Of a stretch of DNA of 39,702 nt, positions 19,853 through 23,625 are shown piece after piece. Position numbers and translations under genes: made by a program. This DNA comes from an uncultured Gammaproteobacteria bacterium. Lineage in GTDB: Bacteria > Pseudomonadota > Gammaproteobacteria > PS1 > Pseudothioglobaceae. Position 1 is the first letter of the stretch. Each line of letters begins with the position of its first letter. The stretch covers positions 1-39,702 of the forward strand of contig CABXNH010000008.1 of the NCBI GenBank assembly GCA_902513495.1. The letters run 5' to 3'. The notes beneath the pieces were generated by a model, which saw only the letters and a list, made by a program, of their open reading frames with translations, made no database searches and was not told where the DNA came from.

Positions 19853-20434
19853 TTGTTATATTTTTTAATTTGTAGCTACTTACTTGGATCGATCTCAAGT
19901 GCAATAATCATGTGTAAGATTTGCAATCTACCTGACCCAAGAACCACAGGCTCCAGTAATCCAGGGGCTACAAATGTTCTTAGAATTGGCGGGAAAAAAG
20001 TTGCAGCATTTGTTCTTATATTTGATGGCCTTAAGGGGGCTATACCTGTCTTGCTTGCTCATTATTTTGGCCTAAACTTGTTTGATTTAACAATTATTCT
20101 TCTTAGTGCTTTTCTTGGACATGTTTTTCCAATTTACTATGGATTTAAAGGTGGCAAAGGTGTGGCAACATACCTTGGAGGACTTATAGGGTTAAATTTT
20201 CTTGTAGGATTAACATTTTCAATTATATGGCTTATCGTTGCTAAAATAATAAAAGTATCATCCATTGCAGCCTTAATTGCAACACTCCTCTCTCCGATAT
20301 ATTTTTATTTCATAACCAATCATGATGTTAGAGCAACTATGGTTATTTTTCTTATAAATCTTTTTATCTACTTTACTCACCGTGAGAATATTAGAAGAAT
20401 TATGAATGGCGAAGAGGGTGTGATTGGCTCTTAG
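19853..20434 (+). CDS. plsY: Acyl-phosphate:glycerol-3-phosphate acyltransferase PlsY
   Basis: Integral membrane enzyme that acylates glycerol 3-phosphate from acyl-phosphate, the first step of phospholipid synthesis. The 193-residue protein has about five membrane helices and the three family motifs: LGSISSAII, the SNPGATNVLRIGGKK glycerol-phosphate region, and GFKGGKGVATYLGG. It starts with TTG at 19853, chosen because an AGGAG site at 19842-19846 is well placed. It is divergent from folB. No terminator follows: the stop is directly succeeded by the left boundary of the mobile segment described below. Confidence 0.95.
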   Translation: MLYFLICSYLLGSISSAIIMCKICNLPDPRTTGSSNPGATNVLRIGGKKVAAFVLIFDGLKGAIPVLLAHYFGLNLFDLTIILLSAFLGHVFPIYYGFKGGKGVATYLGGLIGLNFLVGLTFSIIWLIVAKIIKVSSIAALIATLLSPIYFYFITNHDVRATMVIFLINLFIYFTHRENIRRIMNGEEGVIGS

Positions 20435-20477
20435 TAAAAAAACCCCTTCGGAGATAGACTTATAGAGCTACATTTCT

Positions 20478-20497
20478 ACTCAGTCTTGATACTTACA
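20478..20497 (-). repeat. Left att-like direct repeat (attL core) with displaced permease 3' end
   Basis: ACTCAGTCTTGATACTTACA on the + strand. Read on the minus strand from 20496 it encodes VSIKTE followed by TAG at 20478-20476, the same C-terminus as the intact permease 2.4 kb away. Homology stops upstream of the valine codon, where the frame meets a stop. It is therefore a short duplicated gene end and not a functional gene. Confidence 0.72.
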
Positions 20498-20669
20498 TAG
20501 TATTAAATCGTTGATATGAAAGGGAATCTCTAAATGCAAAGTTAATACAAACTCTCACATTTCCCCTAATAGGTAGAGTATTTATGTTCTCGTTAATACA
20601 AACTTTGGTACAAACTTTTACAAGAATGTTGTCAAATCAACGATTGAGGACAGGGGAAGTATCAAGACT
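20482..20669. repeat. Imperfect 34-bp inverted repeat at the left end of the element
   Basis: AGTCTTGATACTT (20482-20494) recurs inverted and identical at 20657-20669. AATCGTTGAT (20506-20515) recurs inverted and identical at 20636-20645. Both pairs have the same 11-base internal spacing, so these are two arms of one 34-bp inverted repeat, about 27 of 34 bases matching, separated by 120 bases. The outer arm overlaps the att-like core. It may be a recombinase-binding structure, a second partial att site, or a terminator-like fold for the cargo operon. Confidence 0.6.
20537..20619 (+). repeat. Left cluster of arm-type repeats TTAATACAAACT
   Basis: CAAAGTTAATACAAACT at 20537-20553 is identical over 17 bases to the copy at 22804-22820 at the other end of the element. 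GTTAATACAAACT recurs at 20592-20604, and TACAAACTTTT follows at 20609-20619. All have the same orientation. They begin 39 bases inside the left core repeat. Confidence 0.65.
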
Positions 20670-20696
20670 AAGGTATATGTGGTGGCTTAAACGTTT

Positions 20697-22022
20697 TTAA
20701 TCCACTGATATTCTATTCGAAATGTCAATAAATCTCTCCTCAAGAATTTTGTTTTCAAATGGAACAATCTGTGGAATTTGCATGTTCATAACTTTATTAA
20801 ACTCATCTTGAGTGGTATCAATGAGATTTACTAGATTCGATGATATCGTTACGGTATCAAATGTAGAATAAGCTACATCTACGTTATTTTTTGAATCTTT
20901 CATCGCCTTTTTAAGGTTTTCCTCTTGAGCTAACAATATCTCTCGGTACATATCAACAACTTCATTTGAAAATTTGTTCGACTCTATATTCTGTTTCAGT
21001 ATCTTCACATTTGCCTCATTCTTTTGTTTTGAGATACTCTTCTCAGCAAAGTTGATAGCATCTTTTATATCCCTTTTTAATTGATCTAGTGCAACCAGGT
21101 AAATCTCGTTTATTTTCTTGACGTACAATCTTTGTGAGTAAAGCACCATTTCCGCCATAACGACATAAATACCGTAGTATCGTCTGGCATATTCTGGATC
21201 GTAATCTGCATTTTCCATCAACTCTGCTAACGTTGAAGAAATCTGCCTCGTAACATCGAAAACTGCCAATGTATGGGCTAAATCATCACCGTCAACTCTC
21301 TTCGTTATTACCCTAACTTGATTTATTGAAAGATCAATGCCTAACCTGTGAAACTTTTTCATCAAGTCATACTCAAGTTTCCCAATCAATGTCTCTAATG
21401 ATTTGACTCCTTTCACTCGCTTATCAATTTTTCCATCAAATTCATCTTTATCATCCAAATCGGCAAATAGTTTCTTTTCTTTTAGGTCAAATATTTCGGA
21501 TCGCAAGACTTTAATCTGGATTTGTGCTTTTCGAATTTTCGTCGAATATCCCATTACTTCACCATCGAAAAGAATCGGTTCTAATTCTTTTAGAACTTCA
21601 TCCATTTTTATTCTGTAGTCTTTCTTGGTCTTAGATAGTAAAGCAAAATCAGGAGCTTCTCTTTCTTTTTCCTTGAGCTCGGTAAGATCATCAACAAATA
21701 GACGTAGTTCATAGAATTTTTGCTCGATGTCGACCTTTGAAACAGATGTCGATTCTAGATTTGATAATTGATTTTCTACTACTGTTGATAATTCAGATAA
21801 TTGTTCCGAGCTGAAACTGGCAATCTGATCCCCAACTTTGATTCCAACTTCCCACGTTTTCTTAGTCAGCTCCCCTGCTGTTGAAAGAGCATCGTCTGCC
21901 TGTGTATACAGATCCTTAAGCCACGAGTTCTTTTCTGAGTCTTCAGCCAAAGCTTGGATTGAAACGATAGGAGGTGGTAACACTAGTACGAGGAATACCA
22001 AGGTTCTGGCTAAAATCTTCAT
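20697..22022 (-). CDS. Secreted helical coiled-coil protein of unknown function
   Basis: A 441-residue protein with an N-terminal signal peptide (MKILARTLVFLVLVLPPPIVSIQALA, about residues 1-26) followed by an almost entirely helical, highly charged chain without further membrane segments. Predicted coiled-coil stretches occur around 130-230 and 320-390. Distinct blocks are SINQVRVITKRVDGDDLAH, YYGIYVVMAEMVLYSQRLYV and a C-terminal IPQIVPFENKILEERF. No catalytic motif is seen and I do not recognise a named family. The start is ATG 22022, preceded by AGGTGA; a GTG at 22031 is less likely. It is second in a two-gene unit with the PH-SHOCT gene, 48 bases apart, inside the mobile segment. A structural or binding role at the envelope is a guess. 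Confidence 0.7.
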   Translation of the reverse strand: MKILARTLVFLVLVLPPPIVSIQALAEDSEKNSWLKDLYTQADDALSTAGELTKKTWEVGIKVGDQIASFSSEQLSELSTVVENQLSNLESTSVSKVDIEQKFYELRLFVDDLTELKEKEREAPDFALLSKTKKDYRIKMDEVLKELEPILFDGEVMGYSTKIRKAQIQIKVLRSEIFDLKEKKLFADLDDKDEFDGKIDKRVKGVKSLETLIGKLEYDLMKKFHRLGIDLSINQVRVITKRVDGDDLAHTLAVFDVTRQISSTLAELMENADYDPEYARRYYGIYVVMAEMVLYSQRLYVKKINEIYLVALDQLKRDIKDAINFAEKSISKQKNEANVKILKQNIESNKFSNEVVDMYREILLAQEENLKKAMKDSKNNVDVAYSTFDTVTISSNLVNLIDTTQDEFNKVMNMQIPQIVPFENKILEERFIDISNRISVD

Positions 22023-22070
22023 TCGGGTCACCTAAATTCAGCTGTTTTAATACTGTTGATCACATTGCAA

Positions 22071-22598
22071 TTAACCTAGTAGTTTTGTTTTCTGTTCGTT
22101 AAATTCTTCTTCCGAAAGGACTCCAGCCTCTTTTAATTCTGCAAGTTTTTTCAGTTCATCCATTGCAGATACCGCCGGTGCTGCCGCTGGAGCAGCAGTT
22201 TGCTGTTTCATTTTTGCTGCCGCTTCTGAAATTATGTTAGCAATATCCTTAACATCGCCCTTCTTCATCTTTCCAATATGTCTATCTGTACCAGCAGCAG
22301 TGACGGTAATATTTCCACCAAGCGCCTTTGTCTGATAGTTAACAGACCCAACACTATCAAGCGGAATTTCTGTCGACTTCATCCCAGACACCATTCCCTT
22401 GTCAACAAACAGAAGTCGTCTATCAGTCACACAAATTAACCAGGTATTGCCATCGTAAAAACCGCGGGTATGACCAAGAATGTTTTCTCCTTCGTTGATT
22501 ACCTCATGGAGGTGTTTTAATTCTTTGCCAACCCCGAGTCGTCGTTTTGAGTCAAGATTATCCAATTGATCTTGTATATACTTTTTATCTACAGCCAT
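22071..22598 (-). CDS. PH-domain / SHOCT-domain protein
   Basis: A 175-residue soluble protein. Residues about 25-125 form a bacterial PH-like domain of the YokE/bPH_3 type (GENILGHTRGFYDGNTWLIC, VTDRRLLFVDKG, IPLDSVGSVNYQ). An alanine/proline linker follows (AAPAAAPAVSA). The C-terminal 30 residues are a SHOCT domain (MDELKKLAELKEAGVLSEEEF and a final KTKLLG). Such combinations are common on phages and mobile elements and are thought to mediate protein or membrane association, but no activity is defined. I choose ATG 22598, which follows a good AGGAG site; the frame could extend to 22631. It is the first gene of the two-gene cargo unit of the element. Confidence 0.85.
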   Translation of the reverse strand: MAVDKKYIQDQLDNLDSKRRLGVGKELKHLHEVINEGENILGHTRGFYDGNTWLICVTDRRLLFVDKGMVSGMKSTEIPLDSVGSVNYQTKALGGNITVTAAGTDRHIGKMKKGDVKDIANIISEAAAKMKQQTAAPAAAPAVSAMDELKKLAELKEAGVLSEEEFNEQKTKLLG

Positions 22599-22652
22599 AT
22601 CATCATCTCCTAGAATATTTATTAATACCAACTTGATTTTATATTATTCAGG

Positions 22653-22667
22653 AAAAGCTTGTATTAA
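22653..22667 (-). repeat. Inverted copy of the arm-type repeat
   Basis: Read on the minus strand the bases are TTAATACAAGCTTTT, one mismatch from the TTAATACAAACTTTT form found at 22809-22823 in the opposite orientation. It lies upstream of the PH-SHOCT gene, near its presumed promoter (a TATAAA on the minus strand at 22643-22638), so it might also act as an operator. Confidence 0.45.
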
Positions 22668-22797
22668 ATTCTAATAATATAAACTAACTTCTTCACTTGC
22701 GACTATTTGGATTAAAGAACATACAAGTCATTTTCTATTGATTTTTTGATTATTTTAATCCGATACTTAAAGTGTACACCACTTTTAACTGATTATT

Positions 22798-22823
22798 TTA
22801 ATACAAAGTTAATACAAACTTTT
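22798..22823 (+). repeat. Right tandem arm-type repeats
   Basis: TTAATACAAA occurs twice at an 11-bp interval (22798-22807 and 22809-22818). The second copy extends to the 17-base identity with the left end (22804-22820) and to TACAAACTTT (22813-22822). The cluster ends 43 bases inside the right core repeat. The 22632-22863 interval has no credible gene; these repeats are what it holds. Confidence 0.65.
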
Positions 22824-22863
22824 TAGGATATGTTGTAGGAATAGGGGTTGTAGAGGATCTAAA

Positions 22864-23625
22864 TCACTCTGTCTTAATACTTACACCACGATTGAGCATG
22901 AAATTAGCGGCAAAGGCTAAAACAATTATCATAAATATAGGCACTAAAAAAGCCTTCCATAGTTCTACAGATCCTATACCTAAAAAACCTAACCTGAAAG
23001 AATCCATCATATAAAAGATAGGATTAAATACTGACAAACCCTGCCAGAAGCTAGGCAAAATATCAATACTATAGAACATTCCACTAAGATAGGTTAGTGG
23101 CAATAGAACAAAGTTTGGAATTATAGAAATATCATCAAAGGTCTTCGCGAAAACAGCATTGATGAAGCCAGCTAATGCAAACATAATTGATGTTAAAAAG
23201 AAAGTTACTGCAATTATTAACAGGCTATAAATTTTAATTTCTACAAAAAAAGAAATTGTAAATGTTACAGCTGCGCCAACACAGAATCCTCTAGCAACAC
23301 CACCACTCACAAAGCCTAATAATATCACCCAATTTGGTGTAGTAGATACCAGTAATTCTTCAAAGCTATTATTGTATTTTGTCATAAAGAATGAGGACAC
23401 CGTATTTGCATATGATTGCATAATTACTGTCATTAAAATGATTCCAGGAACGATGAAATCAAGATAATCAATCCCCCGCATCTGGCCTATTCTTGATCCC
23501 ATCAGTCCGCCAAAAATAAGCAAGTAAAGTGAGGTTGTTATCACTGGTGGCACTATTGTTTGAACCCAAATTCTGGAAAACCTCAGTATCTCTTTAATAA
23601 CAATAGTCTTATATGCAATCCACAT
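22864..23625 (-). CDS. ABC-2 type transporter permease (YadH-like)
   Basis: A 253-residue inner-membrane protein with six predicted helices, the permease of an ABC exporter. PFVLLPLTYLSGMFYSI-type sequence (here NFVLLPLTYLSGMFYSID) and the FNPIFYMMDSFRLGFLG block are characteristic of the ABC-2 family, particularly E. coli YadH. The substrate is unknown. It starts three bases after the ATPase gene. The final six codons form one of the two att-like repeats, so its 3' end appears to have been exchanged during insertion of the neighbouring element while its protein sequence stayed intact. Confidence 0.92.
   Translation of the reverse strand: MWIAYKTIVIKEILRFSRIWVQTIVPPVITTSLYLLIFGGLMGSRIGQMRGIDYLDFIVPGIILMTVIMQSYANTVSSFFMTKYNNSFEELLVSTTPNWVILLGFVSGGVARGFCVGAAVTFTISFFVEIKIYSLLIIAVTFFLTSIMFALAGFINAVFAKTFDDISIIPNFVLLPLTYLSGMFYSIDILPSFWQGLSVFNPIFYMMDSFRLGFLGIGSVELWKAFLVPIFMIIVLAFAANFMLNRGVSIKTE
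22866..22885 (-). repeat. Right att-like direct repeat (attR core) inside the permease gene
   Basis: ACTCTGTCTTAATACTTACA on the + strand, 18 of 20 bases identical to 20478-20497. It is the last coding segment (VSIKTE) and part of the stop codon of the ABC-2 permease gene on the minus strand. The stop differs (TGA here, TAG in the left copy), consistent with one copy having arrived with the element. Confidence 0.72.

Follow-up and report, generated by a model that had tools for sequence, protein, structure and literature searches.

A 2.4-kb element with lambda-like ends and no mobility gene probably relies on an outside integrase for movement

What would move a segment of DNA that is bounded by recombination-type ends and encodes no recombinase? 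The question is raised by the window analysed here, a stretch of 39,702 nucleotides from an uncultured gammaproteobacterium of the Pseudothioglobaceae (contig CABXNH010000008.1), in which an element of about 2.4 kb (about 20478-22885) separates plsY from an ABC-2 type permease gene (Table 1). Housekeeping genes occupy the flanks (folB, folK, plsY, the ABC-2 permease and its ATPase, and a 2-oxoacid dehydrogenase acyltransferase). Within the element only two cargo genes were found, and no integrase, recombinase or transfer genes; the window holds no tRNA, no Rfam family and no defence-system match. The first cargo gene has no family match and was not found in the 28 other genomes of the genus; the second matched Pfam (E 1.5e-17 and 8.4e-9) and PHROG 2700 (E 1.1e-47). 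Since the element has no mobility gene and carries at both ends paired docking repeats like those of tRNA-inserted islands in the same genus, its movement probably depends on an integrase encoded elsewhere.

Table 1. Positions of the element's ends, repeats and genes, and of its neighbours, in the window
Feature	Position	Strand	Remarks
plsY (G3P acyltransferase), neighbour outside the element	19853..20434	+	Pfam E 1.4e-49
Gap from plsY stop to left core, 43 bp	20435..20477	.	end GACTTATAGAGCTACATTTCT resembles cassette right flank
Left core ACTCAGTCTTGATACTTACA	20478..20497	+	18/20 identity to right core
Arm-type pair L1, TAAATGCAAAG (degenerate) + TTAATACAAACT, 11-bp period	20531..20553	+	same place in G002 cassette left end
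Arm-type pair L2, TTAATACAAACT + TTGGTACAAACT, 12-bp period	20593..20616	+	G002 has a 12-bp pair there
Degenerate inverted copy of core + 22 bp of inner flank	20632..20672	-	78% over 41 bp
Cargo gene 1, 444-aa protein	20697..22031	-	signal-peptide-like N-terminus by eye
Cargo gene 2, 186-aa bacterial PH (bPH_3) + SHOCT protein	22071..22631	-	Pfam, PHROG matches
Arm-type pair R, TTAATACAAAG + TTAATACAAACT, 11-bp period	22798..22820	+	paired repeats at same place in other right ends
Conserved right flank GATATGTTGTAGGAATAGGGGTTGTAGAG...CTAAATC	22821..22865	+	profile R1; recurs in relatives at several target genes
Right core ACTCTGTCTTAATACTTACA	22866..22885	+	last codons of ABC-2 permease gene; plsY-permease junction undisturbed in relatives
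Target gene, ABC-2 type permease, 253 aa	22864..23625	-	Pfam E 1.1e-30; reading frame kept

The original prediction had read the repeats at the two ends as the arm sites of a lambda-like attachment site, and all the repeat coordinates it gave proved correct. The two exact copies of the 17-mer CAAAGTTAATACAAACT, at 20537-20553 and 22804-22820, are set 39 bp inward from the left core (20478-20497) and 45 bp inward from the right core (22866-22885), respectively; an exact extra copy at 20593-20604 is followed by TTGGTACAAACT at 20605-20616, and on the right TTAATACAAAG at 22798-22808 precedes TTAATACAAACT at an 11-bp interval. An inverted copy with one mismatch was likewise present, at 22656-22667; a further one-mismatch copy at 22622-22633 goes beyond that list. 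Both of these single copies, one of them inverted, lie ahead of the right pair and might be extra arm sites or remnants. With the degenerate partner TAAATGCAAAG at 20531-20541, which completes the first left pair, the remaining repeats resolve into three tandem pairs (spacings of 11, 12 and 11 bp), all in one orientation and all inside the two 20-bp cores, so that several short arm-type repeats stand on both core sides, as in a lambda-type att site and as in a cassette of another genome of the genus, G002. Scattering of the motif through the genome, which would have counted against arm sites, was not seen: the exact 12-mer TTAATACAAACT has four copies in the 1,217,412-bp assembly (0.96 expected), three of them in the 2.4-kb element (0.0019 expected) and the fourth a single stray in contig C10 without a core. 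A search of the 28 other genomes of the genus for the doubled pair AATACAAAN{2,4}AATACAAA found no copy.

The cores at both ends match the undisturbed chromosomal target, again as at lambda-type attachment sites. An ortholog of the permease was found in 24 genomes of the genus, and in these the plsY-permease site is undisturbed in 13, occupied in nine and cut by contig ends in two; at the 13 empty sites the two stop codons lie about 0-12 bp apart or overlap. On the minus strand the right core reads GVSIKTE-stop, the TGA stop being contributed by the element, from its right flank at 22821..22865. On the plsY side, the end of the 43-bp gap, GACTTATAGAGCTACATTTCT, was likened by reading to GGCTTATAGAGCGTCTAAATC, the cassette right flank in genome G041; this resemblance suggests an earlier cassette there, of which 20435..20477 is a likely remnant.

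The right end is a recurrent structure. A sequence profile of it, R1 (pair R, flank GATATGTTGTAGGAATAGGGGTTGTAGAG and core), gave matches at E<=0.01 in 16 of the 29 genomes examined in the genus; 14 matches reached E<=1e-7. In a class-wide sample of 143 genomes, no match from outside the genus improved on E 1.5e-4. Reading of the adjoining coding sequence showed permease, maf and grpE genes to be the targets, in each case at the 3' end; ssrA adjoins one junction, and some right ends stand in tandem. G002 has two tandem cassettes with right ends about 850 bp apart, and its permease-proximal cassette repeats the three pairs of the window element with the same 11/12/11 spacing (its 12-bp pair, at the place of L2, follows GTTCTCG) but with a different motif, TTAATATACA. 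Flanking cores were found for cassettes of 2.4 kb (the window), 2.2 kb (G016) and 0.87 kb (G002), and the left core was not recognisable in most other cassettes. When the window ends were joined in silico into an attP, natural sequences aligned across the joint in G018 (89% over 61 bp), in G022 (71%) and in G002 (70% over 168 bp), the last being a cassette-cassette junction. Such tandem junctions suggest movement with or by a related element.

Two further observations concern these loci. In G018 (L021 9240-9365) right flank, core and left flank are joined just downstream of ssrA in the arrangement predicted for a cassette attP. In several cassettes and islands, CTCCCTCACACATCAAACGAAATTTGGACTTT stands upstream of secreted-looking MKKLLLL cargo genes (L021 8400-8520; L024 10570-10590 and 9735-9745; L018 10665-10700; L064 9790-9890), and may be a common cargo promoter or the boundary of a cargo module.

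Arm-type repeats of this kind do co-occur with tyrosine recombinases and cores in the genus. Ten of the 29 genomes encode non-Xer tyrosine recombinases of ~335 aa, whole or in fragments, and the names of the records carrying this family point to the SUP05/Candidatus Thioglobus group. Eleven of the genes were read (ten full or nearly full, and the truncated G004:C9); all adjoin a tRNA gene except that of G041, which begins at a contig end. A tandem 11-bp pair immediately precedes the start codon in each of the 11 related integrases (it is degenerate in G004:C9); among random 60-bp windows, 2.4% contain a pair of 11-mers with <=2 mismatches. Examples are TTTCGTGCAAA/TTTCGTGCACT, TATGTACAGTT twice and TTTAATGCAAA/TTTAATGCATT, and the pairs for the G006, G042 and G004 integrases are TTAATGCAAA, TTCGTGCAAA and TATGTACAGT. 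Four islands have a matching pair, its orientation unchanged, at their far end next to a duplication of the tRNA 3' end: G000:C13, from the genome of the window itself (5.4 kb; tRNA-Lys; 57-bp repeat), G004:C3 (7.3 kb; tRNA-Pro), G022 (6.5 kb; tRNA-His; a second set of pairs comes after it) and G040 (15.7 kb; tRNA-Lys; 59-bp repeat). These four islands are the layout of the window element plus an integrase, and they support the arm reading of its repeats; as in the cassettes, their cargo includes small secreted-looking proteins. At the level of the family, then, the lambda-like arm layout that had been proposed is supported, while an integrase with the exact window motif TTAATACAAACT was not found (the window's own assembly is 70% complete). 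One of these islands, at tRNA-Pro in G004 (L061 3585-5753), has what looks by eye like a DNA cytosine methyltransferase gene beside that of a 362-aa protein, possibly a restriction-modification system.

Within each pair the two copies covary. At 11 cassette right ends, with registers set by hand from the aligned ends, the copies differ by 1.5 bases on average within a pair and by 3.6 between elements, and for ten integrase-linked pairs the values are 1.5 and 5.7; random re-pairing was never as good in 100,000 trials (p = 1e-5 for the cassette pairs and for the integrase-linked pairs), which indicates that each element has its own motif, common to both copies. In the integrases, conservation is much higher in the catalytic domain than at the N-terminus. 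Among ten related proteins, arm-motif distance correlated with N-domain distance (r 0.54, p 0.001, confounded by shared ancestry) and with core-binding domain distance (r 0.76, p 0.0002), and showed no correlation with catalytic domain distance (r -0.09). The N-domain was modelled as three strands and a helix (beta-beta-beta-alpha; pLDDT 81), the arrangement of the lambda and Tn916 arm-binding domains. A structural search of the PDB with this model returned no integrase among the matches listed, the best being an AP2 DNA-binding domain (Z 5.8), and so neither supports nor excludes an arm-binding fold. The full-length model is weak beyond the N-terminal half (mean pLDDT 63); by sequence, the protein outside the N-domain resembles XerA, XerD, HP1, Tn1549-type and lambda integrases.

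For 10 of 11 cassette pairs (one tie) the best match in unchanged orientation is with the ~335-aa family, and the window pair agrees with the G006 integrase pair at 16 of 20 bases. The two ~335-aa integrases of the window's own genome are interrupted, one by an in-frame TGA and one by truncation, and they carry TTTCGTACACT- and TATGTACAGTT-type motifs, unlike the window. No copy of the cassette right flank was found in the islands that carry an integrase, so the cassettes may rely on a distinct, unseen subtype of the enzyme. In our judgement the window element is likely a non-autonomous mini-island, resembling an integron cassette, that is moved in trans by an arm-binding integrase.

The strongest competing account is that the element is a decayed autonomous island which lost its own integrase by deletion and is now a fossil moved by no enzyme. 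Decay does occur in the genus, where decayed ends and remnants of integrases are present at other loci, and in the element itself the arm copy at 20531 and the inverted core copy are degenerate. Against this, the element retains intact cores, three arm pairs and two cargo genes with open frames, and no fragment of an integrase was seen in it; comparable cassettes without an integrase are also found repeatedly, in several species and at several genes. We consider a fossil unlikely, if far from negligible.

A second possibility keeps mobilisation in trans and assigns it to the other integrase family of the genus, P4-like recombinases of ~400-430 aa with an Arm-DNA-bind_3 domain. Such enzymes at tRNA and ssrA genes (L066-L072) also have tandem pairs upstream of int (TGTGTATATAAT, TGAGTATATAAT), and in one of their islands, in G006, the pair is matched by another at the far end and there is an att repeat of 24 bp. 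Their pairs, however, have a 12-bp period, where the cassette right pairs have 11 bp, and other motifs: they differ from cassette pairs at 8-12 of 20 positions at best, whereas the ~335-aa family differs at 4-9 in the same orientation. A P4-like enzyme is accordingly an improbable mobiliser.

It is far less probable still that the repeats are operator or promoter elements, or iterons, regulating genes: a position just upstream of int and a spacing of one helical turn, which is common for operators, would suit such a role, but in four islands the same pair recurs in the same orientation 5-16 kb away beside the far att repeat, and in the cassettes pairs stand at both ends beside cores. A standard integron array (attC sites and IntI) or a Xer-dependent element is barely credible despite the small cassettes, short open frames, tandem arrays and inverted repeat around the left end (20479-20672), as the core has by eye no GTTRRRY attC consensus, the inverted repeat has no counterpart in the G002 left end, arm pairs belong to neither system and the linked integrases score far below the integron-integrase and XerC/D cut-offs; we rejected both the integron and the Xer readings.

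From the observed architecture (ends, cores, empty sites, recurrence, tandem arrays and likeness to integrase-bearing islands) we infer arm binding and mobilisation in trans, by which the element may still be moving, and can offer a likely mechanism for movement by an arm-binding integrase. The circular cassette would carry an attP in the order arm pair R, right flank, core, left flank, L1 and L2. Two protomers of a ~335-aa tyrosine recombinase, like those of the tRNA-inserted islands in this genus, would sit side by side on each arm pair through their N-terminal arm-binding domains, with the core-binding and catalytic domains acting on the cores, as in lambda (PMC4880445). Site-specific recombination between the 20-bp attP core and the permease 3' end would then insert the cassette with the reading frame kept. 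As the cassette has no integrase, the enzyme would have to come in trans, from an island or another element in the cell.

The element can be compared with several known systems. Lambda attP has cores flanked by arm-type repeats on both sides, which its heterobivalent integrase contacts through an N-terminal arm-binding domain (PMC4880445); the window element differs in its direct tandem pairs at both ends, its lack of an integrase and a motif that varies between elements. Islands with arm-binding tyrosine recombinases of the IntTn916, IntSXT and P4-type groups (PMC8138268) share its end architecture, insertion at the 3' ends of conserved genes and att duplication, and such islands are present in the same genus, but they insert at tRNA genes and have int, whereas the target here is a protein-coding gene. 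Without an integrase of its own the element is not an autonomous genomic island or IME; flanked by att sites and lacking recombinase and transfer genes, it is CIME-like (a cis-mobilizable element). Recombinase-less att-flanked islands stacked in tandem at ssrA in Dehalococcoides, suggested to be cis-mobilizable, are close in kind, although serine recombinases operate there (PMC3146451) and the cassettes described here are small, with conserved ends and several target genes. Integron gene cassettes are likewise small cargo units without a recombinase that form tandem arrays, with attC and IntI in place of lambda-type arm/core ends. The tycheposons of marine bacteria (PMC10872708, PMC11389934), compared by description and not by sequence, are also tRNA-associated cargo elements of tyrosine recombinases, but they are larger (4-200 kbp) and those described have the recombinase that the window element lacks.

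The combination found here, of small cassettes with a conserved end, several targets, tandem arrays and arm motifs that differ by element alongside varying integrase N-domains, seems unusual, and we found no description of such cassettes in SUP05/Thioglobus in the part of the literature that our search covered. Tentatively, and with less confidence than we attach to the single element, the cassettes might form a system parallel to integrons, in which mini-islands without an integrase (those measured span about 0.9-2.4 kb) share a conserved lambda-type end and are moved in trans by a family of arm-binding tyrosine recombinases whose N-domains have diversified over a nearly constant catalytic domain; on that diversification rests the notion of the arm motif as an address choosing the integrase for each cassette. 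If true, this would explain how small cargo genes, many of which encode short secreted-looking proteins, are shuffled among the sulfur-oxidising marine bacteria of SUP05/Thioglobus without a mobility gene per unit. It would also provide a natural series for testing the recognition code of arm-binding domains, since these and the arm repeats vary against a catalytic domain that hardly changes; annotation pipelines that require an integrase per island would miss such cassettes.

Finally, among viral contigs the right-flank 18-mer had 13 matches and the doubled motif 14. The contigs inspected are of phage type and lack a matching end, and with one exception the doubled motif falls where a particular phage gene starts; given this context we take the viral matches to be unrelated or due to chance. 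Relatives of the integrases in viral contigs are distant (42% identity at best). In a set of related phage-type contigs (L190-L192, L196-L198, L200-L202) the exact 18-mer GGAATAGGGGTTGTAGAG lies in an intergenic region, probably by chance.
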